24,999 nt of DNA from a virus. Under the pieces are notes generated by a model that saw only the letters and a program-made list of their open reading frames with translations, searched no databases and was not told where the DNA came from. Below are positions 9,765-24,995 of this stretch, piece after piece (position 1 is the stretch's first letter; each line of letters opens with the position of its first letter). Location of the stretch: positions 1-24,999 of IMG/VR virus record IMGVR_UViG_3300028569_000162; one strand, 5' to 3'. The position numbers and the translations under genes are program-made.

Positions 9765-9947
9765 TTACAGACTAGCACCAATCTCAACAAACTCAAAGCT
9801 GAGTTGCCATAGATGTGCATATGATGGTTGTTTGATGAGCCAGTTTAGAAACTTGTCTTGTGCTTCAGAAATAGTGGAAGCTTCAACATGCAACACACCT
9901 TTGAACACATTGTTTTGGCTGCTATAGCTGACAGTGAAGTGTCTCAT
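9765..9947 (-). CDS. Small hypothetical protein downstream of nrdB (60 aa)
   Basis: The ATG at 9947 overlaps the nrdB stop in ATGA, so translation is coupled to nrdB. The protein starts MRHFTVSYSS, has a beta-strand-rich first half (FKGVLHVEAS), then a helix (TISEAQDKFLNWLIKQ) and a final strand (LSFEFVEIG). This alpha/beta layout resembles small phage proteins of unknown function. No catalytic residues stand out. Its position after nrdB suggests co-expression with nucleotide metabolism but gives no specific role. Confidence 0.7.
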   Translation of the reverse strand: MRHFTVSYSSQNNVFKGVLHVEASTISEAQDKFLNWLIKQPSYAHLWQLSFEFVEIGASL

Positions 9948-10906
9948 GCTGCCCTGCCCCACACATCGTCCCATGTACCAGTCTGAGCACCCTTGCTGTA
10001 GTCTGTGACCTTCTGTTCAAAGAAGTTGGTGTGTGATGTACCGAGCATGCCATCAACCCAAGGTAGAGGATTCTTCTTGATCTTGTAGATTCCTTTCATA
10101 CCCATTGAAATGAGTCGACGATCTGCAATGTAGCGAATGTATTCTTTCACTTCTTCTTTGGTAATCTTCTCAACTTCCACCATACCAAAAGCAAGATCAA
10201 TGAACTGGTCCTCAAGAGCAACCATCTCCTTAGCAATCTCTTTAATCTGTTCAGGTGTTGTTTCATCTTGATGATGTTTAACATATTCACGATATACCTT
10301 TATCATTCCTTCAGCATGCATAGTCTCATCAAGGATGGACCAGCTAATGATTTGACCAAGCCCTTTCAGCTTACCGTTACGTGCAAAGTTGAGCAACATA
10401 ACAAAGCTTGAGAACAACTGCATACCTTCGCCGAAGGCAGAGATGACAGCAATCTTCTCAGCCACTGGTGCTGTGTTCAGGCGTTGCAGGTAGTCATGCT
10501 TCTCAACCATCTCACCATATTGCAGGAACTCGTTGTAGGTTGACTCAGGCAAACCCAATGTTTCAATCAAGTGTGCATAGGCTGCAACGTGCAAAGCTTC
10601 ACGGGCAGCAAACCCACTCATCATCATTCGCACTTCCGGTTGACGGAACAAAGGAATGTAATGGTCATGGTAGCCACTACCAATGTCCAAGTCACCTTGT
10701 ACAAAGAAGCGCAATATCTTTGTCAGAAACTCTTGTTCTTCTTTAGAAAGTCGCTCTTTGTAGTCTTTGATGTCCTCAGTCATAACAACTTCGCTATGTA
10801 ACCAGTGGCTTTGCTCATGTTGCAACCAAGCATCATACGCCCACGGGAACTTAAAAGGCTTAAACGTTGTACGCTCGTCTGTAATATCTGATTTAGTCTT
10901 TGTCAT
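9944..10906 (-). CDS. nrdB: Ribonucleoside-diphosphate reductase class I beta subunit
   Basis: The 320-aa protein has the di-iron ferritin-like core of class I R2. Likely metal ligands are D72 (VQGD), E103 and H106 (REALH), E160 (GEGM), and E194 and H197 (DETMH). The radical tyrosine is Y110, four residues after H106. The C-terminal FFEQKVTDYS and the final acidic/Trp tail match the segment that docks to NrdA and relays the radical. The enzyme generates the radical used by NrdA to reduce ribonucleotides. The start lies 14 bases inside a small GIY-YIG-like frame, and the site ahead of it (AAGAAAG) is a weak ribosome binding site, so coupling is likely. The length fits phage NrdB. The assignment is firm. 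Confidence 0.95.
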   Translation of the reverse strand: MTKTKSDITDERTTFKPFKFPWAYDAWLQHEQSHWLHSEVVMTEDIKDYKERLSKEEQEFLTKILRFFVQGDLDIGSGYHDHYIPLFRQPEVRMMMSGFAAREALHVAAYAHLIETLGLPESTYNEFLQYGEMVEKHDYLQRLNTAPVAEKIAVISAFGEGMQLFSSFVMLLNFARNGKLKGLGQIISWSILDETMHAEGMIKVYREYVKHHQDETTPEQIKEIAKEMVALEDQFIDLAFGMVEVEKITKEEVKEYIRYIADRRLISMGMKGIYKIKKNPLPWVDGMLGTSHTNFFEQKVTDYSKGAQTGTWDDVWGRAA

Positions 10907-11033
10907 TGTTTACTTTCTTTGATGAAGTAAAGTATGTTACGAGAAGTTCGGAGGATATGCAGTTGGCAGCATATCTACAACCTACGTACAATGAACCACT
11001 AGGTACGTGCTGTATTTTGTAGAAGTATGCCAT
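10893..11033 (-). CDS. Truncated GIY-YIG endonuclease-like small ORF between nrdA and nrdB
   Basis: A 46-codon frame starts 2 bases after the nrdA stop (AAGGG upstream of the ATG) and ends 14 bases inside nrdB. It reads A-Y-F-Y-K-I-Q-H-V-P-S-G-S-L-Y-V-G-C-R and later Y-F-T-S-S-K-K-V. The first part matches the GIY-to-YIG half of the GIY-YIG nuclease domain, and the Y-F-x-S-S-K-x-V part is the next block seen in phage homologues. The catalytic Glu-bearing C-terminal part is absent. It is therefore either a remnant of a homing endonuclease, which often sits beside RNR genes in phages, or a small protein kept for another role. The coding frame fills the whole intergenic gap. Confidence 0.65.
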   Translation of the reverse strand: MAYFYKIQHVPSGSLYVGCRYAANCISSELLVTYFTSSKKVNNDKD

Positions 11034-11035
11034 AG

Positions 11036-12814
11036 TCACCCTTCGCAAGCTAAGCAGGTGTCACCATCTGCAATTTGTTTTAAGTCAATCTCATCTTCAA
11101 TACGTTGACGCTTAATCTGAGCACCAACCTTGTCTGCCTTCTTAACCTTCTCACTGCGAAGATAGTACAGGCTCTTCAGTCCACTCTTCCAAGCAAGGAA
11201 GTGAACGCTGTGCAGATACTTCACAGACACGTTAGCAGGGAAGAACAGGTTCACACTCTGTCCCTGATCAATATACTTCTGACGGTCAGCAGCAAGCTCA
11301 ATGAGCCAGCGTTGATCAATCTCCATCGCTGTCTTGTACACTTCCTTCAGCTTCTCAGGCACGTCCAGATGCTGGATAGAGCCATCGTTGCTGATGATGG
11401 ACGCCCACACATCGTCATCGTCCATACCAAGCTGTGCAAGCTCTGCTTTGAGGAAACGATTCTTGTACACGAACGCACCAGACAATGTATCCTGACGGAA
11501 TACATTAGCTCGGTAAGGCTCGATTGATGGGGACGTATTACCCATGATTAGGCTGCTACTGGCGTTGGGAGCAATAGCAGTCCAATGACTAAAGCGACGA
11601 CGAATACCACTGAGATGTGCATCAGGGCATTCGCCACGTGACGTAACCAAGATAGCGTCACCAATCGTGCATTGGTTGTGGATGTGTTTGAAGATTTCAT
11701 TGTTGTAACTCTTAGATAGTACACCATCAATAGTAACACCTTTCTTCTGCAAGAAAGCATGAAAGCCTAGTGTGCCGATACCAATACTACGTTCCATCAA
11801 AGCGCTGGCACGAGCACGGGCAATAGTGTCTGGTGCATTGTCAATAAAATATTGCAACACGTTGTCCAACATCTCCATAACATCAAGGATAAACTGTTTG
11901 TCCTTTTTCCATTCGTCATAGTATTCCAAGTTCAGTGAAGACAAGCAGCACACGGCTGTGCGTTTCTCATTTGTTGGCAGGAAGATTTCAGTGCAGAGGT
12001 TACTACCATTGATGGTAAAGCCTTTGTCTTTCAACCACGATGGCATAGCTTTGTTGGCTGTGTCAATGAAGACGAGATAGGGTTCACCTGTTTGCATACG
12101 CAGGTCCAAGATCTTCTGCCACAAATACTTAGCTGACACTGTCTCAACCACTTCACCGTTGGCAGGATTGACTAGGTTGAAGCTGTCGTCTGTACTGTCA
12201 TCTTTCATGCATCGTTCGATGATGTTCATGAACTCGTCGGACATGTTGATGCCGTGATGCATGTTCAGGGTGCGAACGTTCTGATCACCAGTGGGCTTAC
12301 GCATCTCCAGAAACTGGATGATGTCAGGATGGTTGATGCTGAGGTAGGCGGCATAGCTTCCACGGCGTGTACGTCCTTGACGGTAGGCCAATGAACTAGC
12401 ATCATAGATTTTCAAGTGAGGCATAACACCAGTGGACTTGTCATCGCTGTTGCGAATACCAACGTGAATACCAACACCACCACCCATCATCGAAAGCCAA
12501 TTAGTTTCTGATAGATTGTCGACCAAACCTTCTGCGCTATCGTCCATATAGTTAAGAAAACAGCTAATAGGAAGCCCCCGCTTAGACCTACCAAAAGATA
12601 GGATAGGAGTAGAATAGCTGAGCCAGTGTTTACTAGAGTAGTCATACAGTCGCTGAGCATGTTCTTGATTGCTGGCGAATACTTCTGATACAAATGCGAA
12701 ACGTTCTTGTGGAGATACTTCATCATCCTTCATGTAGCTTTCTTTAAGACGTTGAAGACCTAGCTCATCAAACAATGCGTCACGGGATAGGTCAATGTCA
12801 ACCTTGAATGTCAT
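11036..12814 (-). CDS. nrdA: Ribonucleoside-diphosphate reductase class I alpha subunit
   Basis: The 592-aa catalytic subunit has the R1 barrel signatures. The redox pair is probably C85 (PISCFL) and C289 (AVCCLSSLNL). The active-site N272, C274 and E276 lie in NLCTEI. The PNASSS segment binds phosphate, the radical-relay tyrosines are Y550-Y551, and there is a C-terminal C-x2-C (C587, C590). The protein starts directly in the R1 N-terminal domain and has no ATP-cone, so feedback control by dATP through that domain is not expected. NrdA reduces ribonucleoside diphosphates with NrdB. An AAGG site precedes the ATG. A UUCG hairpin terminator-like element and an extended -10-like sequence lie between mazG and this gene. 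Confidence 0.95.
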   Translation of the reverse strand: MTFKVDIDLSRDALFDELGLQRLKESYMKDDEVSPQERFAFVSEVFASNQEHAQRLYDYSSKHWLSYSTPILSFGRSKRGLPISCFLNYMDDSAEGLVDNLSETNWLSMMGGGVGIHVGIRNSDDKSTGVMPHLKIYDASSLAYRQGRTRRGSYAAYLSINHPDIIQFLEMRKPTGDQNVRTLNMHHGINMSDEFMNIIERCMKDDSTDDSFNLVNPANGEVVETVSAKYLWQKILDLRMQTGEPYLVFIDTANKAMPSWLKDKGFTINGSNLCTEIFLPTNEKRTAVCCLSSLNLEYYDEWKKDKQFILDVMEMLDNVLQYFIDNAPDTIARARASALMERSIGIGTLGFHAFLQKKGVTIDGVLSKSYNNEIFKHIHNQCTIGDAILVTSRGECPDAHLSGIRRRFSHWTAIAPNASSSLIMGNTSPSIEPYRANVFRQDTLSGAFVYKNRFLKAELAQLGMDDDDVWASIISNDGSIQHLDVPEKLKEVYKTAMEIDQRWLIELAADRQKYIDQGQSVNLFFPANVSVKYLHSVHFLAWKSGLKSLYYLRSEKVKKADKVGAQIKRQRIEDEIDLKQIADGDTCLACEG

Positions 12815-13528: not shown

Positions 13529-14427
13529 TAGAACAACTCCTTATTCAGTTCTTTAATTTTTGCTGTCACACAATGCGACAACACTTTGAAGTCAACCTTT
13601 GGGTTCTTAAACTCCTTCACGAAGTTCCATGTTTCCTCAGTGACTAAGTCGTAGTATACAGTGTGGATGAGGCGAGGGATATACTTACTGGACCACCCCT
13701 CCATCTCATTAGTGATTTTCGCAACAACCTTGTCGACCAATGCTTGCGTCACATACTTAGCTGCGATCTTCTCTTCAACAATTTCACAACCAATGACTGG
13801 CGCACCCATAGCAATGTGATGCTTGGCTTTGAATTCGTTGGCGACAATCTTGGCCCATGTCTGACGACCATACTTGTTCGTGTAGTCATAGTTCTTCACC
13901 ACGACACCTTCACCACTGCCTTCACCATCCTTCACCAGATAGTGTGCCTTACTCAGACACTCAGTGAAGTGGTCGATGCTACCGTTCTTGATGATGGCAA
14001 TGGGGGCAATGACGTTGATGCCAGCAGCAACCAAGCCTTCAGAGTATTCGTCATAGCTTAGCAAGCGTTCTTTGTTGCGGTCATACACATCGAACACATA
14101 GAACTTGCGCCATGCATCGTCGTTGTAGGTCTTCAGCGTGTGCGGCACAAGCCATTCACCGTAGAGCACGTGCTCAGGGTTGGCATACATGTACGGTACT
14201 ACAGCATTGTCATCAACCATAGCTTTCATGAAGCCAGCATTGTCGTTATCGATTGACAACTCACGATTACGGCTACCGCAACTAAACGGTATAGTCTTAG
14301 TCTTGTCCATCCACACACTACCGTTAGTGCCATCCAGCTTAGGGAACACATAACATGTACCCACTTCAATGCCTTCAACTTCGGTGTTGCCGTAGCGTTC
14401 AAGGTGTTGATATTTGATGAAGCTCAT
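13528..14427 (-). CDS. RNA ligase (Rnl2-like nucleotidyltransferase)
   Basis: The 299-aa protein has the ordered motifs of ATP-dependent RNA ligases. Motif I is K30-L-D-G-T-N-G with the adenylated lysine. Motif III is Y-G-E-W (89-92), IIIa is F-Y-V-F-D-V-Y-D (109-116), motif IV is E-G-V-V-V-K-N (173-179) and motif V is W-A-K-I-V (191-195). The enzyme joins 5'-phosphate to 3'-hydroxyl RNA ends and would seal nicked RNA, for example cleaved tRNAs. No polynucleotide kinase/phosphatase partner is seen in the window. The start overlaps the HNH stop (ATGA), and the stop overlaps the membrane-protein start (TAATG). An additional helical C-terminal domain follows motif V. The family call is confident, but the natural substrate is unknown. 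Confidence 0.9.
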   Translation of the reverse strand: MSFIKYQHLERYGNTEVEGIEVGTCYVFPKLDGTNGSVWMDKTKTIPFSCGSRNRELSIDNDNAGFMKAMVDDNAVVPYMYANPEHVLYGEWLVPHTLKTYNDDAWRKFYVFDVYDRNKERLLSYDEYSEGLVAAGINVIAPIAIIKNGSIDHFTECLSKAHYLVKDGEGSGEGVVVKNYDYTNKYGRQTWAKIVANEFKAKHHIAMGAPVIGCEIVEEKIAAKYVTQALVDKVVAKITNEMEGWSSKYIPRLIHTVYYDLVTEETWNFVKEFKNPKVDFKVLSHCVTAKIKELNKELF

Positions 14428-14804
14428 TTCTTTTTCCTTTCTGCTTTCTCTTGATCAGTTTTGATTTTATGACAAGGCTTACACAGCACCTGCAGATTCT
14501 CTATCTCACAGAAGATGCGGTCAATGAAGTTGTCCCATGTAGTGAAGCCCTTCTTAGGATCTACAACTGGCTTGACATGATCGACCTGTACGTCAGAAGC
14601 GACATAGAGTTTCTGACAAGCAACACACTTGTAATGCATTGCCATCTTACCAGTCTTTGCATTCACTTGTTTGCCAACGAAAGCTTCCTTCAAAGCTTTG
14701 TACTTCGGAGGCCAGCGCCGTGATGCAGCACGTAGGGCAGAGGTCACGAAAGATTTGAATCGTGCCTCTGTCCACTCACCACCATTGCGTTTCTTATCTG
14801 TCAC
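14424..14804 (-). CDS. HNH endonuclease next to RNA ligase
   Basis: A GTG at 14804 gives 126 aa beginning MTDKKRNGG. This start is preferred because upstream TTG codons lie deeper inside the preceding gene, though no strong ribosome binding site is seen. The zinc ribbon is C60-x2-C63 with C108-x2-C111. The HNH catalytic parts are D75-H76, N103 (ENLQ) and H112 in CKPCH. The N-terminal part (W-T-E-A-R-F, R-W-P-P-K) is one I associate with phage HNH proteins. It nicks or cuts DNA and may be a homing or packaging-type enzyme. It is not inserted in a gene here, but lies coupled to the RNA ligase. Confidence 0.82.
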   Translation of the reverse strand: MTDKKRNGGEWTEARFKSFVTSALRAASRRWPPKYKALKEAFVGKQVNAKTGKMAMHYKCVACQKLYVASDVQVDHVKPVVDPKKGFTTWDNFIDRIFCEIENLQVLCKPCHKIKTDQEKAERKKK

Positions 14805-14985
14805 GTGGTACAGATTCAAAAGCAACGTTGGTCATGTCAAATACGTCAGATGGTTCAACTAAGATGTTTTGCACAATGGCACACACATCATCAACGTCCA
14901 ATGCAACGAAGTAGTAGGTGCTGTCTTCATTCTCTTGCACCGCTACAACAAAGCCGTTCTCAGCATTAGTGATTGTTATCTTCAT
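14794..14985 (-). CDS. Small acidic hypothetical protein (63 aa)
   Basis: The ATG at 14985 overlaps the upstream stop (ATGA). The protein begins with a beta-strand pair (MKITITNAENGFVVAVQ, then STYYFVALD), continues with a helix (DDVCAIVQNIL) and ends with an acidic and polar tail. This two-strand plus helix pattern is common in small early phage proteins. Its end overlaps the start of the HNH gene by 11 bases. The family is not recognised. Confidence 0.7.
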   Translation of the reverse strand: MKITITNAENGFVVAVQENEDSTYYFVALDVDDVCAIVQNILVEPSDVFDMTNVAFESVPRDR

Positions 14986-19834: not shown

Positions 19835-19989
19835 CATACTCTCCTGTTATTAAGTATCTGCAACAAGATGTTAATACTCTGCACCAACATCATCTGTTCC
19901 ATTGGGTCAAGCTGGTGATAGCTTGGTGTAGGGGTGGGCCATTTCTTTCTAATGGCTTCCCAATACTGTTCTACTTCGCTCATATTCAT
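19834..19989 (-). CDS. Tiny hypothetical protein with PMEQMM motif (51 aa)
   Basis: The ATG at 19989 overlaps the HNH stop in ATGA. The product has EQYWEAIRKKWPTPTPSYH, then L-D-P-M-E-Q-M-M-L-V-Q-S-I-N and a Leu-rich helical end. Helices around a W-P and a D-P-M-E-Q-M-M core resemble small conserved phage proteins of unknown role. It may originally have followed the primase-helicase directly, before the HNH gene entered. Confidence 0.7.
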   Translation of the reverse strand: MNMSEVEQYWEAIRKKWPTPTPSYHQLDPMEQMMLVQSINILLQILNNRRV

Positions 19990-20483
19990 TTTACCTTTTC
20001 ATATGCGGAGTGCAACTCAATTATCTTATTAGCAAAATACAGAAGTTCATCAATGCTTGCGTTGTACTTCATTGCGTTTGCCTTATGAGACATAAGTTGT
20101 ACATTTCCTTTAACGTATCCCTTTTCAGGAACGATCCTATCAATTGTTGGTGAGTTATGAGATGGACCTTTTGCGTCTAGGTTTTGTTTGAGTTCAATAC
20201 CTAGATACGGACAGAGCTTCACAACTTCTATGTCTTTAATGGTGATGTCAAACGGAACTCCTTTTTGTTTTGCACGGTTCTTTGCTTGTTGAACCAAGTG
20301 TTGAAGCCAGTTTTTTCTAAACCACTGCCTAGATTCCTTATCCCAACAACTTTTACAGATTGGTTTAAGATAGGTGTAGTACGAAATAGTTCCATCTTTC
20401 TTGGTGTGCTTACACTGCCTAGCGTAGTAGTCCTCAACAACCTTATTCTCACCGCACTCATTACAAACTTTATGTGTTCTCAT
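19986..20483 (-). CDS. HNH homing-type endonuclease
   Basis: The 165-aa product (ATG at 20483, with AGGAGG at optimal spacing, the strongest ribosome site seen in the window) has an N-terminal zinc ribbon C7-x2-C10 with C43-x2-C46. It then has a basic helix (QQAKNRAKQKGVPF), C-P-Y-L-G-I-E-L, and the nuclease core S-P-T-I-D-R-I-V-P with G-Y-V-x-G-N-V and S-H-K-A-N. This is the pattern of freestanding phage HNH homing endonucleases, which nick DNA and spread their own gene. The gene looks more AT-rich than its neighbours and has a possible own promoter. Insertion between primase-helicase and a small gene is likely. Confidence 0.85.
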   Translation of the reverse strand: MRTHKVCNECGENKVVEDYYARQCKHTKKDGTISYYTYLKPICKSCWDKESRQWFRKNWLQHLVQQAKNRAKQKGVPFDITIKDIEVVKLCPYLGIELKQNLDAKGPSHNSPTIDRIVPEKGYVKGNVQLMSHKANAMKYNASIDELLYFANKIIELHSAYEKVK

Positions 20484-20512
20484 ATTATACCTCCTAGTAT
20501 TTGAACATAGTA

Positions 20513-20540
20513 GGTATAACATATGTTCTAAATATTACAA
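20513..20540 (-). promoter_or_regulatory. Possible promoter for the HNH gene
   Basis: On the - strand TTGTAA (20540-20535) and TATACC (20518-20513) are 16 bases apart, near the sigma-70 pattern. They lie just before the strong AGGAGG site. The -35 overlaps the primase-helicase stop. The match is imperfect. Confidence 0.3.
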
Positions 20541-23873: not shown

Positions 23874-24995
23874 TTAAAACATTGGTTGTAAATCTCTCAT
23901 GTCCTGTGCCACTGTCGCAGCCTTGAGAGTGTGTCTGACATATGGTGTCAAGCTTGATGGTGTAGCATGCCCTGTCAAGCTCATGATGTTAGTGGTTGCT
24001 ACACCAGCCATCACCATCTCTGTCACGGCAGTGCGGCGCAAGTCCATAAGCTGTAGCTCGGTAGACAATTGAGCGTCTTCCATTATAGCTCTGCCAGCCT
24101 TAGCCAAGCCCTGCAAACTGTACGGCTGTAGTATGCCAGCAACAGTGCGCTGTGTAGGGAATACATACTGTTGCCAGCCCATCTCAGTGTGTTGCTGCTT
24201 CAACATTTGTTGCAGGTCTTGAGGCAGCGGGATAGACACCTTAGCCCTGCGCTTGCTTTGTGTCAGCGACAACACACCAGTGTCAATGTTGTAGCTGTCC
24301 CATGTCAGCAGCCTCATGTCACCAAGACGTTGTGCTGCACAATAGGCTGTGTACACAATGAGTCCTAAGCTGCGTGTCTCATAGTTGCTGAACGCTGTAG
24401 TCATGAAAGCTTTGATGTCGTCACGCTCCCATGTCACACGCCTTGGCTTGCTTGTTTGCTTCTTCACTTCCTTGAATGGATTGAAGGTGGTGAAGCCATT
24501 ACGAATGGCAAAGCTAAACATCAACCTGTACACGGCCAACACATGACTAGCCAAGCTAACACTGTGTGCGGCATGCAAGTCATAGATGCGCTGCATAGCT
24601 GGTGTTGTCAGGTCAGCAATCCTGCTGGCATACAGCGTAGTGTGTGTTGCTTTGTCACCTGCCCAACGCCTGAGATAGTAGACATAGTCTTCCTTGCTCT
24701 TGCTTGACAGCTTGTTGTAGTCGATGGAGTTGGTGTAGCTCTTGACCAGATCCAACACTGTGCTCTTGGTGGTGAGGTGCTTAAGGTAGCGATGTTCCTT
24801 GCGCCAGTTATCAAGGATGTCGTTGTACTCGCTTGCTTTGTTGATGGCATTGACTAGGCTGGTGCCAAGGCTTTCACGCCTGACAACACCAGCTTCAACA
24901 GCATCAGTGGGTGGGTTGTAGCGGTAGCTGACTACCCCGTTGCGGTCAACGATGGTCATGTAACGTGCTAGGTTCATAGCTTTGCCTTCACCCAT
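23874..24995 (-). CDS. int: Tyrosine recombinase/phage integrase
   Basis: The frame gives 373 aa from ATG 24995. An ATG at 24977 has a better GAAGG site and would give 367 aa, and the frame is still open at the window edge. The N-terminal half is a SAM-like core-binding domain. The catalytic domain has R223 (AAQRLGDMR), K248 (QSKRRAK), R320 in M-D-L-R-R-T, H343 (TGHATP) and Tyr at 352 (PYVRHT). The HxxR histidine is replaced by Met (MDLR). Such enzymes integrate or excise phage DNA at att sites. No att core can be defined in the window. It is followed by thyX nine bases downstream. Confidence 0.9.
   Translation of the reverse strand: MGEGKAMNLARYMTIVDRNGVVSYRYNPPTDAVEAGVVRRESLGTSLVNAINKASEYNDILDNWRKEHRYLKHLTTKSTVLDLVKSYTNSIDYNKLSSKSKEDYVYYLRRWAGDKATHTTLYASRIADLTTPAMQRIYDLHAAHSVSLASHVLAVYRLMFSFAIRNGFTTFNPFKEVKKQTSKPRRVTWERDDIKAFMTTAFSNYETRSLGLIVYTAYCAAQRLGDMRLLTWDSYNIDTGVLSLTQSKRRAKVSIPLPQDLQQMLKQQHTEMGWQQYVFPTQRTVAGILQPYSLQGLAKAGRAIMEDAQLSTELQLMDLRRTAVTEMVMAGVATTNIMSLTGHATPSSLTPYVRHTLKAATVAQDMRDLQPMF

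Follow-up and report, generated by a model that had tools for sequence, protein, structure and literature searches.

In an uncultured phage, a short open reading frame (ORF) fills the gap between nrdA and nrdB; judged by its sequence, it is a truncated GIY-YIG homing endonuclease without its catalytic part. It is very probably what remains of a free-standing, SegE-like enzyme that targeted the 5′ part of nrdB and entered by homing, and it would now bridge translation between the two ribonucleotide reductase genes. The features concerned are listed below by their positions in the window, by which we mean the whole 24,999-nt stretch of DNA that was analysed. L001 is a related viral contig with an intact copy of the gene, and empty relatives are those without one.

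11036..12814, minus strand: nrdA, the large subunit of class I ribonucleotide reductase, 592 aa (Pfam and PHROGs)
10893..11033, minus strand: 46-aa remnant ORF of a SegE-like GIY-YIG homing endonuclease (homology and comparison with L001)
10904..10926, minus strand: deletion junction region, TTCATC joined to AAAGAAAGTAAAC (comparison with L001)
10893..10912, minus strand: a stop codon in each of the three frames close to the nrdB ATG (reading of the sequence)
10715..10906, minus strand: divergent 5′ tract of nrdB, its first ∼192 nt, a putative co-conversion tract (L001 against empty relatives)
9944..10906, minus strand: nrdB, the ribonucleotide reductase small subunit, 320 aa (Pfam and PHROGs)

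The remnant ORF (11033..10893, minus strand) comprises 46 codons and a stop, and its predicted product is MAYFYKIQHVPSGSLYVGCRYAANCISSELLVTYFTSSKKVNNDKD. It begins 2 nt after the end of nrdA and its stop codon occupies positions +12..+14 of nrdB; an earlier sequence-only reading had placed a 46-codon frame in this gap, starting 2 nt after nrdA and ending inside nrdB, and its coordinates are exact. That reading had also taken the frame for what is left of a GIY-YIG endonuclease whose catalytic second half is gone. This is borne out both by the full-length homologue in L001 and by a tblastn comparison with 50,697 phage records, in which the first 41 residues are 54% identical to annotated GIY-YIG or homing endonucleases (E = 1e-5). 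The N-terminal half of the GIY-YIG domain is recognizable as FYKI and YVG, followed by a YFTSSK block, as expected of a descendant of this family, and the match is not due to chance. A profile search of the product, which the same reading had proposed, gave a more mixed outcome: Pfam and PHROG scans returned no match, because 46 aa are too short for family models, and the GIY-YIG similarity emerged from the direct tblastn comparison. A sequence search of solved structures returned nothing meaningful, and an AlphaFold model of the stub, a single long helix with a mean pLDDT of 60.7, is too weak for use. The patterns used found no other truncated copy in IMG/VR, and those tried on 84,980 bacterial and archaeal genomes found no relatives of the stub.

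Comparison of the junction in related phages identifies the state from which this arrangement departed. We surveyed 80 viral contigs fetched by NrdB and 80 fetched by NrdA; many are near duplicates, and the figures count contigs, not events. The two genes abut or overlap (gap of −9 to +6 nt) in 63 of the 80 NrdB-fetched contigs, the typical empty junction consisting of the nrdA stop, 1–2 bases and the nrdB ATG. In another 16 of these 80 the genes are 81–642 nt apart, and in the remaining one nrdA stops prematurely. The ancestral junction, on sequence grounds, is nrdA and nrdB abutting. L001, whose NrdB is 96% identical to that of the window, carries an intact 217-aa endonuclease frame (L001 836-1489) at the identical junction position. 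The L001 frame and the remnant share the start TGA-CT-ATGGC and the tail KKVNNDK, which runs into nrdB, and are 89% identical over the part of the protein that they have in common. A single site is therefore polymorphic for the element, being empty in L002, full in L001 and truncated in the window; absent, full-length and truncated copies were the very states that the sequence-only reading had suggested looking for among relatives.

Other genes occupy the same gap elsewhere. In L019, L020, L026, L029 and L044 they are of the Endonuclease VII (HNH) type (Pfam PF02945, E down to 2e-22). In L004-L007, L030, L045, L065, L120, L150, L152 and L154 they are small and show no similarity to nucleases; such non-nuclease genes at the junction include a 110-aa unknown, a ∼100-aa family starting MKFRKKPVVIEATQWF, a thioredoxin and others. 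A deletion appears to take out the nrdB start in L120, and the gap reaches 2,092 nt in L143 and L146. Two further possible homing genes lie in the window on the minus strand: an HNH protein adjoining an RNA ligase gene (14424-14825; PHROG 3106, 9e-27) and an Endonuclease VII-like protein below a helicase-primase-like gene (19986-20522; PHROG 3322, 5e-32). A tyrosine-recombinase integrase (23874-24995, minus strand; PHROG 1, 5e-37) sits by replication and nucleotide-metabolism genes.

The intact relatives define the family to which the stub belongs. In a single comparison, the L001 protein is 42% identical over 77 aa to Salmonella and Klebsiella phage homing endonucleases (E=2e-15), and it shares 48–52% identity with its viral relatives L160 and L161. 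It has no Pfam match above the cut-off. Three relatives match Pfam SegE_GIY-YIG (PF19835) weakly (at most 23.4 bits, where the cut-off is 25), and one matches PHROG 314, ‘homing endonuclease’, at 7.5e-32. A profile of the family matches T4 SegE across the GIY-YIG domain (E=1.3e-5), with the Glu and Asn positions aligned. The AlphaFold model of the L001 protein (mean pLDDT 43.5) is too weak for use. In L160, a more distant phage than the close relatives of the window, the endonuclease directly abuts nrdB, with its own stop overlapping the nrdB ATG, and other genes separate it from nrdA. Since it adjoins nrdB and not nrdA, this arrangement points to nrdB as the target. The L161 contig ends before the gene following the endonuclease; between nrdA and the endonuclease it has a frame (L161 2883-3269) that looks by eye like a SET domain, which is unusual in a phage.

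Relative to the L001 gene, the window frame lacks 513 bp (171 codons, in frame), so that the first 41 residues now run in frame straight into the 5 residues that once formed the C-terminal end. The aligned Glu and Asn belong to the active site in the GIY-YIG family. The full-length relatives L001 and L160 keep the Glu in YEARYL and the Asn in LNRN; both residues fall in the part deleted after residue 41 and have no counterpart in the remnant, and the window copy is therefore not a working nuclease. The C-terminal DNA-binding region is missing as well, having gone with the 171 codons between residue 41 and the last five. The missing stretch is flanked in L001 by imperfect A-rich direct repeats, TCATCAAAAAAAGTAAA and TCAACAAAAAAGAAAGTAAA, and slippage or recombination between such short repeats may have removed the endonuclease core after the gene arrived. 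The repeats are modest, as 100 of 12,561 pairs score equally high. With an imperfect repeat at the joint and an allele known from a single contig, the deletion could also be an artefact of an assembly that joined reads of two phage strains or collapsed the short A-rich repeat, the real gene being full length. We consider this highly improbable: the repeat has little length and is imperfect, no frame is closed, and the adjoining tract differs by 18% from any strain compared. Because the remnant allele was seen in one contig, a chimeric assembly keeps a slight probability, although all frames are open and the tract is only 82% identical to L001.

A trace of the element's arrival lies in nrdB itself. 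Window nrdA is 96.9% identical to that of the empty relative L002, and identity stays at ∼97% upstream of the insertion up to the last nrdA codons; nrdB after nt ∼190 is again ∼97% identical. Between these, identity to L002 falls to 70–77% in the first 180 nt of nrdB and is ∼75% over its first ∼192 nt; the tract is 82% identical to L001. From nt 96 to 192 almost all informative sites are L001-like, and past nt 192 nearly all are of the empty type (Fisher p=2.7e-7; max-chi break at 192/193, with 0 of 2000 permutations as high). Sites 1–90 are mixed and not purely L001-like. The empty alleles L002, L004, L008, L010 and L012 have one common native nrdB 5′ sequence (88–100%), which marks the window as the recombinant. 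At the same junction, control inserts without detectable nuclease similarity (L004, L030, L045 and L065) leave the adjacent nrdB unaltered, and Endonuclease VII-type inserts (L019, L020 and L029) adjoin divergent nrdB 5′ tracts of ∼300 nt. We infer that nt 1–192 of nrdB are a co-conversion tract, the footprint that a free-standing phage homing endonuclease leaves beside its gene. By comparison, these ∼192 nt derive from a donor akin to the allele that carries the endonuclease. Similar dS values between window and L001 in the stub (0.59) and in nrdA and nrdB (0.52–0.53), together with the 82% tract identity, make L001 a cousin of that donor and not the donor itself.

The likeness of dS across the stub, nrdA and the nrdB tail could also be read as vertical inheritance of the element from an ancestor shared with L001, followed by its precise loss through recombination in the empty relatives. 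This history seems improbable to us, as nrdA and the nrdB tail are ∼97% identical to the empty L002, divergence is confined to the tract from the insertion to nt 192, and the five empty alleles share the native nrdB 5′ type. The homing reading has the intact gene entering an L002-like phage: a cut in nrdB would have been repaired from an endonuclease-bearing donor, with asymmetric co-conversion on the downstream side. A tract confined to that side is consistent with repair following cleavage within the 5′ part of nrdB.

The insertion also changed how nrdB can be reached by ribosomes. Where the junction is empty, the final nrdA codons contain the ribosome-binding site of nrdB (GAAGGA or similar), which scores −4.7 to −6.2 kcal/mol against the anti-Shine-Dalgarno sequence. 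In the window, GAAGGG in the last nrdA codons now precedes the remnant ORF, at −8.2 kcal/mol, and no Shine-Dalgarno-like site is detectable upstream of nrdB (−0.9 kcal/mol). The insertion thus captured the site that serves nrdB in empty relatives. Stop codons flank the nrdB ATG in all three frames, with first bases at −6, +1 and +11 (A counted as 0), so that ribosomes leaving the remnant region in any frame would terminate at the nrdB start. An nrdB with no ribosome-binding site of its own and a start overlapping the upstream stop has the sequence hallmarks of a translationally coupled cistron, and coupled translation of remnant and nrdB is likely for these reasons. The suggestion of the sequence-only reading that nrdB translation could depend on the remnant thus agrees with what the arrangement predicts. 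Most other window genes score −4 or lower, but not all do, and random positions often score better than −0.9 kcal/mol; nrdB could therefore start without a strong Shine-Dalgarno site. Since the nrdA-end site now serves the insertion and nrdB has none, we propose a relay in which ribosomes would translate nrdA, then the remnant, and reinitiate at the nrdB ATG 11 nt before the remnant stop. Under this scheme the stub would be a bridging cistron, not an enzyme.

The stub might be selected as a small protein or as a regulatory leader tuning the NrdA:NrdB ratio, since its frame is open across the deletion, it has a strong ribosome-binding site where nrdB has none, and dN/dS against L001 is about 0.05 over 41 codons. 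We nevertheless think this unlikely. The searches found the truncated form in this window only and most relatives manage without one; an in-frame outcome arises by chance in one case in three, and any frame ends at the nrdB start. The constraint may also predate the truncation, so that the low dN/dS reflects the ancestor as much as the stub. An argument that the in-frame deletion had itself been selected was dropped, because translation would end at the nrdB start in any of the three frames. The data do not support a protein function for the stub; a recent decay product, retained passively, explains them equally well. The sequence-only reading had raised the possibility of survival as a regulatory spacer or small binding protein, a proposal that sits poorly with a form confined to this window and with half a GIY-YIG fold lacking the DNA-binding C-terminus. 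A further idea, possible but doubtful, is that, by capturing the nrdA-end ribosome-binding site, the endonuclease tied nrdB translation to its own frame and that the dead stump was thereby locked in as a required bridging cistron; through this dependence it could not simply fray away.

The remnant is clearly the fossil of a known kind of element and not a new system. The KARL-1 GIY-YIG-like gene of an Acinetobacter phage (L163 4004-4903) is 31% identical over 117 aa to the L001 protein and is likewise inserted at a ribonucleotide reductase locus, but it is full length and splits nrdA into two annotated frames (L163 3108-6827). In phage Aeh1, mobE likewise splits nrdA. T4 has a homing endonuclease gene, mobE, between nrdA and nrdB, and Hef replaces it elsewhere (PMC2988022; PMC3653736). 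T4 MobE and Hef of phage U5 resemble the present element in being free-standing homing endonucleases in the nrdA/nrdB gap that cut nrdB (PMC2988022; T4 record), and the mobE start overlaps the nrdA stop, following the same coupling logic (PMC2988022). MobE, however, is an active HNH enzyme of a T4-like phage, whereas here a dead GIY-YIG stub lies in an unrelated phage at another exact site. T4 SegE (PF19835) belongs, by profile comparison, to the same GIY-YIG subfamily as the full-length relatives, but it is intact, lies between inh and uvsW, targets uvsW and is only ∼26% identical to L160. T4 I-TevIII is also an nrdB-locus endonuclease made defective by deletion (‘deletion in proximal half’, T4 record), although it is an intron-borne HNH enzyme and not a free-standing GIY-YIG gene. 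An in-frame intragenic deletion in a phage homing endonuclease is also seen in ICP1 gp174, where 228 bp between internal repeats are gone (PMC10448857); that protein gave up DNA-binding repeats but retained its nuclease, whereas here the catalytic half went together with the remaining protein.

What is new is a dead member of this kind, accompanied by an unusually full series of junction states. One phage lineage presents the empty, invaded and degenerate states of a single homing endonuclease with the recombination footprint still visible. The nrdA/nrdB homing site of T4 is thereby extended to another class of nuclease and to uncultured phages that do not belong to the T4 group. Capture of a ribosome-binding site, finally, offers a testable explanation for how remnants of selfish genes might survive between essential ones.
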